Origin: Hyphomicrobiales bacterium
Lineage (GTDB): Bacteria > Pseudomonadota > Alphaproteobacteria > Rhizobiales > HXMU1428-3
Direction: 5' to 3'
Length of the DNA: 32,937 nt
Assembly: GCA_017640685.1 (NCBI GenBank)
Contig: JAEPQF010000031.1
Span: forward strand, 1 to 32,937
The notes under the pieces are model-generated. The model was given only the letters and a program-made list of their open reading frames with translations, ran no database searches and was not told where the DNA came from. Shown here piece after piece: positions 3,876 through 29,582 of this stretch. Each line of letters opens with the position of its first letter. Within the stretch, counting starts at the first letter, position 1. The translations under genes were made by a program, and so were the position numbers.

Positions 3876-3994
3876 ATAAATAAGAGGTATCTTCATATCC
3901 GAAGAAGGACCTCAACCTACTTCGGGCTGTGGGACATTCAGGCTGTGGAACATGGCGCAGCAAGTACGAAGCCCGGCGCGTTGCTCTGCACAGT

Positions 3995-4112
3995 GCGGTT
4001 GCTAGTGGGCAACCTGAAGCGCAACTAAGAAGCGCGGTTGCTAGTGGGCAACCTGAAGCGCAACTAAGAAGCGCGGTTGCTAGTGGGCAACCTAAAGCAC
4101 ATCAAAAATGTA
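3995..4112 (+). repeat. Three tandem 39-bp palindromic repeat units (GCGGTTGCTAGTGGGCAACCTGAAGCGCAACTAAGAA..)
   Basis: Units start at 3995, 4034 and 4073 (period exactly 39); each holds GGTTGC-TAGTGG-GCAACC; the third diverges at its 3' end (..CCTAAAGCACATCAAAAATG). Confidence 0.95.
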
Positions 4113-4165
4113 GGACTGCAGAGATAGCTGTAGAATAGCCCGTGAGAGAAAAAAGGATTTTAAAA

Positions 4166-4939
4166 ATGCAGTTGCTCTTCATACATGGCTGGGGAATGAA
4201 CAGCACAATTTGGGACAGCACAATTCAAGCTTTAAAGGGCCATGCTGTAAAGAGCCTTGACTGCAAAACTATTGATCTTGGGTTTGTTAAAGGGGGGGGA
4301 ACAAGCCCGTTTGACCAAACACAACCAACCATCGTAATCACTCACTCGCTCGGAACAAGTTGGTTTTTAAAAAACTATCAAACAGAGATGTTTGAAAAGC
4401 TAAACCTAAAGGCATTTATAGCTGTAAACGGTTTTACGAATTTTGCGAGCTTCACGGCTGAAGAGACTTTAAACAAAATGAAAGAAGGCGTGCTTGCAAA
4501 CCCGGCCACTCAAATGGCTCTCTTTTGGCGAAGAGCTGGGTGCAAAAATTTCACAAGTGCTGATAATCTAAATCCAGAAAAATTACATGAAGGCTTAGAG
4601 TGGCTCGCCACCTGGGACGCATCTGAAGAAGCCGCTAGCTTAAACTGCCCCAAATTAATCCTGGCCTCTAAAGCCGATAAGATCGTCCCTGCCAGCGCTA
4701 TAGAGGAGCAATGGTACAGCGCGGTTGCAGGTGGTGGGCAACCTAAAGCGCCATCAAAAAACGCGGTTGCCGCGCCGGTTGCAGGTGGGCAACCGAAGGC
4801 GTACTTAGGAAGTGGGCAACCTAAAGCGCAACTAAACAATCAAAAAATCTCTTGGCATGAAACAGCGCCCCATTGCTTGCAATTAGCAGAGCCAGAATGG
4901 GTCGCTGAAAAAATCATTGAACAAGTTCAAGCCCTTTGA
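4166..4939 (+). CDS. BioH-like alpha/beta hydrolase (putative pimeloyl-ACP methyl ester esterase) carrying an in-frame repeat-derived insert
   Basis: LLFIHGWGMNSTIWD, THSLGTSW nucleophile elbow, ASKADKIVP acid loop, HETAPHC histidine; ATG at 4166 preceded by AAAGGA (track ORF starts at GTG 4142); sits between bioF and bioA. Confidence 0.8.
   Translation: MQLLFIHGWGMNSTIWDSTIQALKGHAVKSLDCKTIDLGFVKGGGTSPFDQTQPTIVITHSLGTSWFLKNYQTEMFEKLNLKAFIAVNGFTNFASFTAEETLNKMKEGVLANPATQMALFWRRAGCKNFTSADNLNPEKLHEGLEWLATWDASEEAASLNCPKLILASKADKIVPASAIEEQWYSAVAGGGQPKAPSKNAVAAPVAGGQPKAYLGSGQPKAQLNNQKISWHETAPHCLQLAEPEWVAEKIIEQVQAL
4721..4836 (+). repeat. Palindromic repeat cluster inside the BioH-like CDS, translated in frame
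   Basis: GCGGTTGCAGGTGGTGGGCAACCTAAAGCGCCATCAAAAA, GCGGTTGCCGCGCCGGTTGCAGGTGGGCAACCGAAGGCG and AGTGGGCAACCTAAAGCGCAACTAAA; encodes AVAGGGQPKAPSKNAVAAPVAGGQPKAYLGSGQPKAQL. Confidence 0.92.
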
Positions 4940-12706: not shown

Positions 12707-14185
12707 ATGCCAGATTTACTAGATTTATCAATCGCTGAAGCTCGCGAAGGGCTTGATAATGGTGACTTCTCAGCCAAAGAATACACTGAAAGCCATATCA
12801 AAGAAATTGAAAGCGCAAATAAAACCTTAAATGCGTACATTCTAGAAACACCAGAAAAAGCGCTTGAAATGGCCGCTAAATCTGATGAGCGCATGGCAAA
12901 AGGTGAAGCAGGTCTTCTTGAAGGCATTCCCTTAGGCATTAAAGATTTATTCTGCACCAATGGTGTGCGCACAACCGCATGTTCACATATTCTAGATGGC
13001 TTTGAGCCACCTTATGAATCCACCGTGACTGAAAACCTATGGAATGCTGGCGCTGTCATGCTTGGTAAACTCAATTTGGATGAGTTTGCTATGGGGTCAT
13101 CAAATGAAACAAGTCATTATGGGGAAGTAATCAACCCGTGGCGCCGTGAAGGTGATGACGCTAAATTGGTTCCTGGCGGGTCATCTGGTGGGTCAGCTGC
13201 TGCAGTCGCCGCTCATCTTTGTGTTGCAGCAACAGCAACAGATACCGGCGGTTCAATTCGCCAACCAGCAGCTTTTACAGGCACCGTTGGCTTAAAACCA
13301 ACTTATGGCCGTGTCTCGCGCTGGGGCACAATTGCTTTTGCTTCAAGTCTTGATCAAGCAGGCCCAATCACAAGAACTGTCGAAGATGCAGCCATTATGT
13401 TGCAAGCCATGGCTAGCCATGATGAAAAAGACACAACATCTGTCGACATCGCCGTGCCTGATTATCGCAAAGAATTAGCCGGTAAAGTGAAAGGTATGAC
13501 AATAGGTATTCCAAAAGAATATCGTGTTGATGGCATGAGTGAAGAGATCGAAGCTCTTTGGCAGCAAGGCATCGAGTGGTTTAAAGATGCTGGCGCTAAA
13601 ATTGTTGAAGTGAGCTTACCGCACACAAAATACGCTCTTCCAGCTTACTATATCGTAGCTCCAGCTGAGGCTTCATCTAACCTTGCTCGTTATGATGGTG
13701 TGAAATATGGCCTCAGGGTTGAAGGTGACGGCATCGACGGTATGTATGAAAACACCAGAGCGGAAGGCTTTGGTGATGAAGTGAAACGCCGGATTTTAAT
13801 GGGCACTTATGTGCTCTCTGCTGGCTATTATGATGCGTACTACCTTAAGGCTCAAAAGGTGAGAACCCGCATTAAACAAGACTTCGATGAAGCCTTTAAA
13901 GATGTTGATGTGATGCTCACACCAACCACACCAAGCCCTGCCTTTGCAATGGGTGAAAAATCTGGTGACCCGTTAGAGATGTACCTAAACGATATTTTCA
14001 CAGTGACAGTGAATATGGCAGGGCTTCCAGGACTTTCAGTTCCAGCTGGTATGTCAGCTTCTGGCTTGCCATTAGGTTTGCAACTTATCGGCAAACCATT
14101 TGACGAAGGCACACTCCTAAAAGCAGGCCAAGTCATCGAACAAGCCGCCGGCGAGCTACCCAAACCAACAAAATGGTGGGCTTAG
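12707..14185 (+). CDS. gatA: Asp-tRNA(Asn)/Glu-tRNA(Gln) amidotransferase subunit A
   Basis: Amidase signature [15 protein letters not shown]...[29 protein letters not shown]. Confidence 0.97.
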
Positions 14186-14220
14186 CACGGTTGCTAGTGG
14201 GCAATCTGAAGTGCATAAGC
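14186..14220 (+). repeat. Copy of the GGTTGC/GCAACC palindromic repeat immediately after the gatA stop
   Basis: CACGGTTGCTAGTGGGCAATCTGAAGTGCATAAGC, same order as the 3995-4112 units. Confidence 0.85.
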
Positions 14221-14257
14221 AGCATAGAAATTACATTACTAAACTCTGTAGGTAACA

Positions 14258-14299
14258 GCGACGGTTGCCATGTGGGCAACCGAAGGAGCGTCAAAAATG
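14258..14299 (+). repeat. Copy of the palindromic repeat forming the translation initiation region of chorismate mutase
   Basis: GCGACGGTTGCCATGTGGGCAACCGAAGGAGCGTCAAAAATG; AAGGAG Shine-Dalgarno and ATG lie in the repeat-like 3' arm. Confidence 0.85.
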
Positions 14300-16308: not shown

Positions 16309-17772
16309 ATGTCATCTGAAAACTCACATCTAATCAAAGGCGCGACAGGAGATTGGGAGGTCGTTATTGGCCTTGAAGTGCACGCTCAGGTGACATCTAA
16401 TTCTAAACTGTTCTCAGGCGCGTCAACTGAGTTTGGTGGCGCAGCAAACGACCATGTTTCGTTGGTTGATGCAGCCATGCCTGGCATGCTCCCGGTGATA
16501 AATGAAGAATGCGTCAAGCAAGCGATCCGTACGGGACTTGGTTTAAAATCAGAGATCAATCTCTTTTCACGCTTTGATCGTAAAAACTATTTCTACCCTG
16601 ATTTACCGCAAGGCTATCAAATTTCCCAATTCCAATACCCCATCGTTGGCGAAGGCGTTGTGGTGCTAGATATGAAAGACGGCTCTACCTTTAACGTGGG
16701 TATTGAGCGCCTTCACTTAGAGCAAGATGCCGGTAAATCCATGCATGACCAACATCCAGACTACTCTTATGTGGATTTTAACAGAACTGGTGTGGCCTTG
16801 ATGGAAATCGTCTCTAAGCCCGACATGCGCTCTTCAGAACACGCAAAAGCTTACGTGACGAAACTGCGTACAATCCTCCGTTACCTTGGCACCTGTGATG
16901 GCAATATGGACCAAGGCTCTATGCGCGCAGACGTGAATGTTTCCGTGCGCCGCCCGGGCGAAGAGTTGGGAACAAGAACAGAGACCAAAAACGTTAATTC
17001 AATTCGCTTCATTGGCCAGGCCATTGACCATGAAGTGATGCGGCAAATTGATGTGCTTGAAGATGGCGGCACCATCGACCAAGAAACTTTGTTGTTTGAC
17101 CCAAAAACCGGTAAGACAAGATCGATGCGCTCTAAAGAAGAAGCACACGATTATCGCTACTTCCCATGCCCAGATCTGTTGCCGCTCGAGTTCGATCAAG
17201 CCTATGTCGACACACTTGCAAAGGACCTTCCTGAACTGCCAGATGAAAAGAAAGAGCGGTTCATGAAAGACTATGGCCTCAGCAATTACGATGCAGGCAT
17301 CTTGGTGAGCTCAAGAGCTTCATCAGAGTTTTTTGAAAATGTAGCAAAGGGAAGAGACGCAAAACTCGCTTCCAATTGGGTGATCAACGAGTTCTTCGGT
17401 CGGCTGAACAAGGAAGGCTTGGAGATCGGCACCAGCCCAGTAAGCGCAGATCAATTAGGCGGCATCATTGAACTGATTTCAAAAGGCGATATCTCAGGCA
17501 AAATCGCAAAAGACCTGTTTGACATTGTTTGGGAAGAGGGCGGTGACCCAGCCCAAATCGTTGAAGACCGTGACATGAAAGCGGTAACAGACACAGGCGC
17601 CATTGAAGCGATCATCGATGAAATCATCGCGAATAATCCAAAACAAGTTGAAGGCGTGAAAGAAAAGCCCCAACTCGTTGGTTGGTTCGTCGGCCAGGTG
17701 ATGAAACAAACCCAAGGCAAAGCTGATCCTAAGGTTGTGAATGGCATCTTGAAAGAGAAGCTTGGTTTATAA
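16309..17772 (+). CDS. gatB: Asp-tRNA(Asn)/Glu-tRNA(Gln) amidotransferase subunit B
   Basis: [30 protein letters not shown]-like [33 protein letters not shown]. Confidence 0.97.
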
Positions 17773-17872
17773 GGTAAGGCTTGGCTGAGTAACGTAGGCA
17801 AAGCCGTCAAAACCCGTGTTTTGCGCCCGCGCAGCTGTTGTGCCTCAGCACGACTAGCGTGAGCGAAAAAAG

Positions 17873-17924
17873 AGCTGATCCTAAGGTTGTGAATGGCATT
17901 TTGAAAGAGAAGCTGGGTCTTTAA
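17873..17924 (+). pseudogene. Duplicated 3' end of gatB (remnant)
   Basis: 52-bp near-identical copy of 17721-17772 (4 mismatches), both encode [16 protein letters not shown]-stop. Confidence 0.92.
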
Positions 17925-17943
17925 GAAACTTATGTATCTCATT

Positions 17944-24329: not shown

Positions 24330-25094
24330 ATGGGGATCAAAGTTTTGAGTTTTGAGCTAATAGGGTTTCTTGCAGTCGCACTCTTTGCAATCGCGATATT
24401 ATTCTCTTCAATAGGTCATGGTGGTGCTTCAGGCTATATAGCCATTTTTGCAATTTTGGGATTAGAGCCAGAATTTATTCGCCCTATTGCTTTGATATTG
24501 AACGTTGTCGTTGCAGGCCTTGGTACTTATAAATTTGCCAAAGCCGGTTACATCAATTGGAAAGCTGCCGCCATCCTCATCGGCGTATCAGCCCCTTTAT
24601 CTTTTCTTGGTGGCACCATTCATCTCCCGCCCGAAATCTACCGTCCCATTTTAGGAAGCTTGCTTCTTTTCTCAGCTCTTTATTTAATTTGGAAAAATAT
24701 ATATGAGCCGAAATTATTATCAAATGAAGCTCTAAAAATACCATTAATTGGTAGCCTCTCGGCAGGCGGGACAATAGGCTTTCTATCTGGGCTTACGGGA
24801 ATAGGCGGCGGTGTTTTGCTAAGCCCTGTATTAATTTTGTTTAATTGGGCCAATGTTAGACAAACAGCCGGGTTAGCCGTCTGTTTTGTGCTCGCAAATT
24901 CTATCGCAGGTTTAGCCGGTAATTTAGTAACCATGAATGGCCTACCAGCATTTGCAGGTGTTTGGGCATTTGCGGTTCTACTCGGCGCTTTAGTTGGCAC
25001 AAAGGTCGGCTTAAAAATAGCCCCCATTAGAATTTTGGTATGGCTTTTGGCTTTCGTAGTTTTTATTGCAGCTGTGAAATTTTTAATTCTGTAA
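24330..25094 (+). CDS. TauE/SafE-family exporter
   Basis: Polytopic; FSSIGHGGASGYIAI and GFLSGLTGIGGGVLLSPVLI repeats typical of TauE/SafE. Confidence 0.9.
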   Translation: MGIKVLSFELIGFLAVALFAIAILFSSIGHGGASGYIAIFAILGLEPEFIRPIALILNVVVAGLGTYKFAKAGYINWKAAAILIGVSAPLSFLGGTIHLPPEIYRPILGSLLLFSALYLIWKNIYEPKLLSNEALKIPLIGSLSAGGTIGFLSGLTGIGGGVLLSPVLILFNWANVRQTAGLAVCFVLANSIAGLAGNLVTMNGLPAFAGVWAFAVLLGALVGTKVGLKIAPIRILVWLLAFVVFIAAVKFLIL

Positions 25095-25787: not shown

Positions 25788-25950
25788 CTATTCCTCGAAC
25801 TGCTCTGTTAACTCAAGCCAGCTTTCTTCAAGCTCTTCCAATTCGCACTGAGTGGTTCCCCGTTTAATTGAAATCTCTTTCACCAAATCAAGATCTTTTT
25901 CTCAACAGTTTGAATTTTTTACGAAGGAGAGCCTGTAGTGCATGTCTTTC
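25788..25950 (-). pseudogene. Decayed duplicate of the 3' end of the ABC-F gene (27696-29582)
   Basis: Translates as DLVKEISIKRGTTQCELEELEESWLELTEQFEE-stop versus DLVKEISIKRGTTQRELEELEESWLELTEQLEVH-stop; 70-bp internal deletion between two ATCTTTTTC repeats. Confidence 0.93.
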
Positions 25951-27695: not shown

Positions 27696-29582
27696 TCAAT
27701 GAACTTCGAGCTGCTCTGTTAACTCAAGCCAGCTCTCTTCAAGCTCTTCCAATTCACGCTGAGTGGTTCCCCGTTTAATTGAAATTTCTTTCACCAAATC
27801 AGGATCTTTTTCATAAAGCGTGACATCATCCAACTGAGCGTCAATGGATTGTAGCTCATCACTTAGCTTTTCCATCTTTTTCTCAACAGTTTGAATTTCT
27901 TTACGAAGGGGAGCTTGTAGTGCACGCTTTTCAGCAGCAATCCTGCGTTCTTCCTTGCGGCTCACTTTTGGTTTGTCATCTAAAAGAGCTTTGTCTTGAG
28001 ATTTCGATTTGCCACCCCGGCTTTGTAAAAGCTCCTTGCGATAGCTTTCCATATCACCGTCATAAGGAACAGTCGTTCCTTGGTCCACTAACCAAAGTCG
28101 GTCAACAGTCGCCTCTAATAAATGCCGATCGTGAGAGATGATGATAACAGCCCCTTCATATTCATTAATCGCATGAATAAGCGCCTCGCAACTATCAACG
28201 TCTAAGTGGTTGGTCGGCTCATCGAGAATAAGAATATGAGGCCCATGAAAACTCGCCAAAGCAAATAAAAGCCGCGCTTTCTCACCACCAGATAGAAGAG
28301 CAGCTTTCGTATCAGCTTTCTGAGGGCCAAATCCAATCGCCGCGCATTTGGCACGTTTTTGAGCTTCTGTGTGATCTTCCATCAATTCTGCAATATGATC
28401 ATAAGGAGAAGCTTGTGGGTTTAACTCATCTAATTGATGTTGCGCAAAATAACCAATGGAGCATTTTTTCGAGCATTTGCGAAACCCGCTCATGGGGGCA
28501 AGTTGACCCATAAGTAATTTCGCCATGGTCGATTTACCATTACCGTTCGATCCAAGCAGCCCAATACGGTCATCAATATCAACGTTCAAATTTAAATCAC
28601 GCAATACAGGCTTATTCTCTTCATACCCAACAGAAACATCATCAAGCCGAATAATCGGATTGCCAAGTTTTGTCGTTGAACTAGGGAAAATAAAAGGAGC
28701 GACTTTGTCATCTATCTGAGCAGCAATAGGTTGCATTTTAGAAAGCACCTTCAAGCGAGATTGCGCTTGCTTCGCCTTGGATGCTTTTGCACGAAATCGA
28801 TCAACAAAAGCCTCAAGATGACGCCGAGCATCATCTTGTTTTTTCATCATCTTCAATTCAAGCCGTTGCTGCTCTCTCCTGGTATCTTCAAATTGGTCAT
28901 AACCACCGGTGTAAAGAGTGAGCTTTTGTTTGTTTAAATGAAGAATGTGCGAAACTGATTTATTCAGTAATTCTCGGTTGTGAGACACCATTAAAACGGT
29001 ATGCGGATAGTTCTTTAAAAAATTCTCAAGCCAAAGCGTGCCTTCAAGGTCAAGATAGTTAGAAGGCTCATCGAGTAATAAAATATCAGGCGCTGCAAAA
29101 AGTGCCGCTGCCAAAGCCACCCGCATGCGCCATCCACCAGAAAACTCAGAAGCATATCTTTGCTGTGCTTCTTCATCAAACCCAAGGCCAGCTAAAATTG
29201 TTGCAGCACGGGCCGGTGCTGAATGAGCATCAATATCAAGCAAGCGAAGCTGAATTTCACTTATGCGCTCAGGATCCGTTGCAGTGTCAGCTTCTTTTAA
29301 AAGGGCATGACGCTCAACATCAGCTTCCAAAACAATGTCAATCAGTGAAGTTTCACCAGAAGGAACTTCTTGCGCCACATGTCCAATTCGCTGGGTTTTA
29401 GGCCAACTAATGCTCCCATCATCGATCGCTAATTCGCCCGTAATCAATTTTAGGAGTGTGGTCTTGCCTGTGCCATTGCGCCCAACAATCCCAACCTTAT
29501 GTCCAGAAGGTATGGCAATGCTGGCATCAGATATTAAAAGACGGCCATCAATTCGATAGGTAAGGTTATTTATATGCAGCAT
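27696..29582 (-). CDS. ABC-F family ATP-binding protein
   Basis: Two Walker A (GRNGTGKTTLLKL, GSNGNGKSTMAKL), two signature motifs (FSGGWRMRVALA, LSGGEKARLLFA), C-terminal coiled coil; no TM. Confidence 0.95.
   Translation of the reverse strand: MLHINNLTYRIDGRLLISDASIAIPSGHKVGIVGRNGTGKTTLLKLITGELAIDDGSISWPKTQRIGHVAQEVPSGETSLIDIVLEADVERHALLKEADTATDPERISEIQLRLLDIDAHSAPARAATILAGLGFDEEAQQRYASEFSGGWRMRVALAAALFAAPDILLLDEPSNYLDLEGTLWLENFLKNYPHTVLMVSHNRELLNKSVSHILHLNKQKLTLYTGGYDQFEDTRREQQRLELKMMKKQDDARRHLEAFVDRFRAKASKAKQAQSRLKVLSKMQPIAAQIDDKVAPFIFPSSTTKLGNPIIRLDDVSVGYEENKPVLRDLNLNVDIDDRIGLLGSNGNGKSTMAKLLMGQLAPMSGFRKCSKKCSIGYFAQHQLDELNPQASPYDHIAELMEDHTEAQKRAKCAAIGFGPQKADTKAALLSGGEKARLLFALASFHGPHILILDEPTNHLDVDSCEALIHAINEYEGAVIIISHDRHLLEATVDRLWLVDQGTTVPYDGDMESYRKELLQSRGGKSKSQDKALLDDKPKVSRKEERRIAAEKRALQAPLRKEIQTVEKKMEKLSDELQSIDAQLDDVTLYEKDPDLVKEISIKRGTTQRELEELEESWLELTEQLEVH

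Follow-up and report, generated by a model that had tools for sequence, protein, structure and literature searches.

How does a short palindromic repeat come to lie in frame within an enzyme gene? The question is raised by a BioH-like alpha/beta hydrolase gene (4166..4939, + strand) in the 32,937-nt stretch analysed here, hereafter the window (uncultured Hyphomicrobiales bacterium, GCA_017640685.1, contig JAEPQF010000031.1). The gene encodes 257 amino acids from the ATG at 4166, and its open reading frame (ORF, 4166-4936) is uninterrupted. As judged by sequence comparison, a 40-residue segment of the predicted protein very probably arose when a hairpin repeat that is, or once was, mobile inserted in this lineage into a functional BioH-like gene.

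The insert in the BioH-like gene

The net in-frame insert (4715..4834, + strand) amounts to 120 nt or 40 codons, corresponding to residues 184-223 (YSAVAGGGQPKAPSKNAVAAPVAGGQPKAYLGSGQPKAQL), and the position of its breakpoints may be off by about one codon. It consists of about 2.5 repeat units on the + strand. Unit 1 (4718..4768; profile match E 2.7e-9, DNA fold -9.2 kcal/mol) is a hairpin with a loop 3 nt longer, unit 2 (4773..4811; E 8e-7, -9.6 kcal/mol) is likewise a hairpin, and unit 3 (4811..4839; E 8e-6) has lost its 5′ arm. According to DNA folding both full units still form hairpins. The initial annotation had recognised an in-frame, repeat-derived insert in this hydrolase, which agrees with the intact ORF and with a genome-wide count of the core pattern GGTTGC-N(3-12)-GGGCAACC: 127 copies were found in the 3.5-Mb own genome, whereas the reversed control pattern matched once, which puts the repeat well above chance level. 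The extent given there, 4721-4836 and about 38 residues, was nearly right and is replaced by the borders above.

A BioH-like gene is present in 12 of 41 genomes searched, namely in the own genome, in seven congeners and in four further genera belonging to the order. In all 11 orthologues aligned the segment is absent: a 40-residue gap follows the conserved Trp residue (W183) and the flanks join directly, as had been anticipated for related species. In the best-assembled sister genomes, G004 and G002, the match ends at query residue 184 and restarts at residue 225 on the next base, placing the empty-site junctions at 24397/24398 and 73283/73284, respectively. Ser61, Asp171 and His236 form a Ser-Asp-His triad in alpha/beta-hydrolase order, are invariant in the seven proteins aligned and had their roles assigned by motif order. 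The insert lies between the Asp171-bearing segment and the catalytic His236, which confirms the earlier placement between the acid and histidine motifs, and from the motif order of the fold a surface loop is inferred at this position. A second insertion of 5 residues relative to all orthologues (residues 24-28, window 4235-4249) is not recognisable as repeat.

The gene is located between bioF and bioA in a bio cluster whose bioB, bioF, bioA and bioD-like ORFs are all intact, and a search of the own genome gave this ORF as the single bioH-like match. The best NCBIfam match of the protein is TIGR01738 bioH (E 8.4e-11, 42 bits versus an equivalog cut-off of 206.95). As this score is below the equivalog cut-off, the protein is called BioH-like, and the name BioH is used tentatively, on grounds of sequence. 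The Abhydrolase_6 match is weak, and a sequence search of the PDB returned weak BioH matches only, covering short stretches. Pairwise comparison with G004 and G002 yielded a dN of 0.15 and a dS of 1.3-1.5 (dN/dS about 0.1), which indicates constraint on the gene. We infer that the peptide is retained in the protein and that the enzyme works.

Several points weigh against this interpretation. The TIGR01738 score is under the curated cut-off, and the constraint seen in the pairwise dN/dS stems mostly from the time before the insertion. An AlphaFold prediction without alignment had a mean pLDDT (predicted local distance difference test score) of 33 and was not used, and the own genome is a 230-contig assembly. 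Two further points concern the repeat at large: one in-frame copy, in HisH, opposes the general strand polarity described below, and no match to the Y1 transposase family PF01797 was found in the own genome and six of seven congeners, while controls matched.

The number of contigs, together with a repeat array 600 nt upstream of the insert, could also suggest an assembly or binning artefact in which misjoined repeats give an apparent insert. Nevertheless, the orthologous gene continues without a break on both sides of the insert, the net gain is exactly 40 codons, the insert units differ from other copies seen, and equivalent inserts occur in independent congener assemblies. We regard an artefact as highly improbable.

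The repeat family and its copies in other genes

Alignment of 99 copies revealed the layout of the unit, which is 36-39 nt long and recurs in arrays with a period of mostly 37-52 nt: an inner stem (GGTTGC/GCAACC), a loop, an unpaired TGAA, TAAA or GAA, and an outer stem. The outer stem covaries, with 3.69 of 5 pairs formed compared to 2.58 ± 0.11 after shuffling the arms across copies, and the exchanges include G-C, C-G and T-A pairs (GCGC/GCGC, GTGC/GCAC, GCGCC/GGCGC, GGGCC/GGCCC, GCCCC/GGGGC). A second type of inner stem, GGATGC/GCATC, was seen by eye in the flanks of aligned copies. One of the sense frames of the repeat is free of stops (AVASGQPKAQL) while the other two contain stops in the consensus unit; the initial annotation had noted the frame AVASGQPKA in both the insert and the intergenic units.

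The seven congeners contain 110, 93, 58, 55, 11, 3 and 0 core copies; the repeat is absent from G001 and nearly absent from G006. Outside the genus the core pattern was found at most four times in any of 33 genomes of other genera and not at all in most of them. When a longer pattern was used to scan a public collection of genomes, 44 stretches were returned, all in Hyphomicrobiales metagenome-assembled genomes (MAGs) with the labels Methyloligella sp. DHS20C07, Rhodomicrobium sp. DHS20C08, Hyphomicrobiales OFTM213 and OFTM288, and Hyphomicrobiaceae IP29b_bin.21. The repeat was not found in the viral contigs searched, and Rfam gave nothing at gathering score in the window.

Translation around the copies showed that at least six further conserved proteins of the genus carry this repeat in frame. 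The repeat is found in a loop of the heme A synthase CtaA (own genome, G000, and G004), at the N terminus of NadA with differing lengths (G000, G002, G003, G004), in CobN and, as three 13-residue units, in Hsp20 (both G003), and in the linker of an Smr protein of the own genome. Moreover, a 129-aa ORF of no known family in G003 (L177 862-1248) is for the most part built from about seven 13-residue repeat units. All sense-strand cases use one frame. In HisH (L080 1653-2387) the repeat is read on the antisense strand (FSCPPATGA); this insert is common to four species and therefore older, and HisH of G005 has a segment of similar length and different sequence. Alignments of NadA, CtaA and HisH revealed that the repeat segment is absent or different outside the carriers.

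These cases bear on the possibility that the insert inactivated BioH and that the gene is a young pseudogene without decay so far. Such a reading would fit an insert that is seen in one genome only and near the catalytic histidine, and the substitution evidence is mostly older than the insert. It is improbable in view of the intact frame, triad and C terminus, of the position as the only bioH-like gene of the genome within an intact bio cluster, and of the tolerance of repeats in NadA, CtaA and HisH, which in part extends over several species.

Few copies lie within genes. In sampled DNA of the own genome, 8 of 109 copies are inside called genes, though about 75% of this DNA is called coding by the simple codon-usage caller made for the analysis. 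Gene insertion is therefore mostly purged or avoided. We propose that copies entering a gene in the sense frame, at a multiple of three and in a surface loop would survive selection, and that others would be purged.

A same-strand gene start lies at most 60 nt 3′ of 36 copies, and an opposite-strand start at most 60 nt 5′ of 2. The variant arm GAAGGAG, which is Shine-Dalgarno-like, occurs preferentially near starts (odds ratio 3.4, p 0.01). In the window, a copy at 14258..14298 (+ strand) carries GAAGGAG as its 3′ arm directly before the ATG at 14297, where it resembles the ribosome-binding site of a chorismate-mutase-like gene. Sequence and genome-wide context suggest that some copies may serve as ribosome-binding sites.

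The window contains six core copies, all on the + strand. An intergenic array of three 39-nt units (3992..4108, + strand) between bioF and bioH was identified by repeat search and is part of a composite mosaic repeat spacer (3900..4160, + strand), which ends with TAGCCCGTGAGAGAAAA, is found again at numerous loci across the genus and has segments in common with these and with the G002 spacer. The corresponding spacer is composite without array in G002, short without array in G004, and has its own array in G003. A degenerate copy (14184..14222, + strand) is located downstream of gatA. Two other duplications were noticed: the 3′ end of gatB recurs just downstream of gatB (17721-17773 and 17873-17925, 53 nt, 92%), and a 107-nt stretch is present at 25795-25901 and 27706-27812 (94% identical, about 1.9 kb apart), one copy being the 3′ end of an ABC-F-like gene (27696-29582) and the other lying beside another gene.

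Strand polarity and the route of spread

The copies keep a nearly constant orientation along the chromosome. In three sets of loci taken together, 306 of 315 copies have the orientation of the local majority; neighbouring copies are arranged head to tail, and only 5 of 153 sites are mixed. In G002 the numbers of +/- copies are 22/2 on contig C1 (1.16 Mb), 21/0 on C2, 0/14 on C3 and 0/16 on C7. Contig C111 has an exception in orientation, which was considered as a possible origin or terminus and rejected, as the skew does not flip there. The genes flanking the copies have mixed directions, and transcription thus does not explain the polarity.

Raw GC skew of the loci was inconsistent with respect to repeat orientation because gene direction dominates it, and the relation was resolved by the skew at third codon positions, which is -0.21 to -0.26 for genes in repeat direction and +0.09 to +0.17 for opposite genes. 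The repeat is on the C-rich chromosome strand at 176 of 188 sites (Fisher test, p < 1e-10 for each of the three sets). The leading strand is usually G-rich. By this rule, which makes no use of origin and terminus positions, the repeat strand would correspond to the lagging strand, and the polarity suggests replication-coupled insertion.

The near-complete polarity with GC skew and the high copy number could also be expected if the repeats were a functional strand-polar chromosome signal, like KOPS (FtsK-orienting polar sequences) or Chi, with polarity kept by selection instead of the insertion route. Known signals of the KOPS/Chi type are short motifs, whereas the copies here are mostly intergenic and variable in stem and spacing, and the repeat is missing from one congener (G001) and nearly so from another (G006). 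This explanation is unlikely.

Somewhat better placed, though still rather unlikely, is an ordinary repetitive extragenic palindrome (REP) moved by a REP-associated tyrosine transposase (RAYT, a Y1 transposase) that was lost or missed in most genomes. The repeat forms a hairpin about 35 nt long and is present in more than 100 copies, the lagging strand is where Y1 enzymes act (PMC6006769), from which polarity would follow, and G004 carries two genes for Y1 transposases (L118 and L120; contig C1, about 11.5-15.4 kb), which were found in no other sampled genome of the genus. Nevertheless, there is no PF01797 match in G000, G002, G003, G005 and G007 despite 11-127 copies and matching controls, the GTAG or CGTC tag is lacking, and copies are arranged head to tail, not as inverted doublets.

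The repeat would more likely spread at the replication fork, where single-stranded DNA would be copied or joined. This route is favoured because the copies keep one replichore strand whatever the gene direction, and we tentatively consider it the likeliest, although the balance does not tip clearly towards it; other routes, template switching for one, may apply equally. No enzyme for fork-linked spread was identified. The full picture, a Y1-independent coding hairpin family that spreads via one fork template strand and supplies both enzyme loops and GAAGGAG ribosome-binding sites, is conceivable but doubtful as a whole.

Comparison with known palindromic elements

As a phenomenon, in-frame palindromes are already known from Rickettsia palindromic elements (RPEs) and intragenic REPs. 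The hairpin family described here, its host group within the Hyphomicrobiales and its strand polarity appear to be new; no paper on the repeat family or the carrier MAGs was found in an open-access library.

The IS200/IS605 TnpA elements (PMC6006769) are similar in that a preference for the lagging-strand template would produce the replichore polarity seen here, and replication-coupled single-strand insertion is known for IS608 and ISDra2 (PMC6006769). Unlike these elements, the repeat has no coding capacity, and no Y1 gene was found in the own genome. REPINs and BIMEs (bacterial interspersed mosaic elements; PMC3116915) are also high-copy hairpins in tandem arrays, but REPINs are inverted doublets while single hairpins are repeated here in one orientation. 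The coding palindromes named PARCEL (PMC2996958) have a palindromic unit with a coding frame as well; they are described as Mollicute-centred intragenic tandem repeat proteins, a description that sets them apart. In-frame REPs have been reported in Opitutus terrae, Xanthomonas and others, where grouped inserts code for 20-82 residues (PMC3733652). These intragenic GTAG/CGTC REPs likewise are small high-copy palindromes, some in frame in housekeeping genes and often grouped. In contrast to them, the 99 aligned copies have no conserved GTAG or CGTC tag at either end, form head-to-tail arrays, and are found without a RAYT in most carriers.

The closest analogy, put forward in the initial annotation, is to RPEs, which are integrated in frame within numerous genes of Rickettsia (PMC10969869). 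As an analogy it stands: a palindromic repeat lies in frame in unrelated conserved genes and encodes a conserved peptide that is apparently tolerated. Membership in the RPEs is not supported by length, arrangement and host. RPEs (Ogata 2000, 2002) are about 150 bp long and comprise ten families in obligate intracellular Rickettsia, according to two reviews (PMC10969869, PMC3733652), whereas the present unit has 36-39 nt, is often tandem, mostly intergenic and strand-polar, and its pattern was seen only in Hyphomicrobiales MAGs, with genomes of about 3.5 Mb. The strand polarity is a direct clue to how protein-coding palindromes multiply, and with filled and empty sites in sister species the insertion process can be traced gene by gene. 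In-frame palindromes, best known from Rickettsia and tied there to reduced genomes, are found here in the larger genomes of Hyphomicrobiales.
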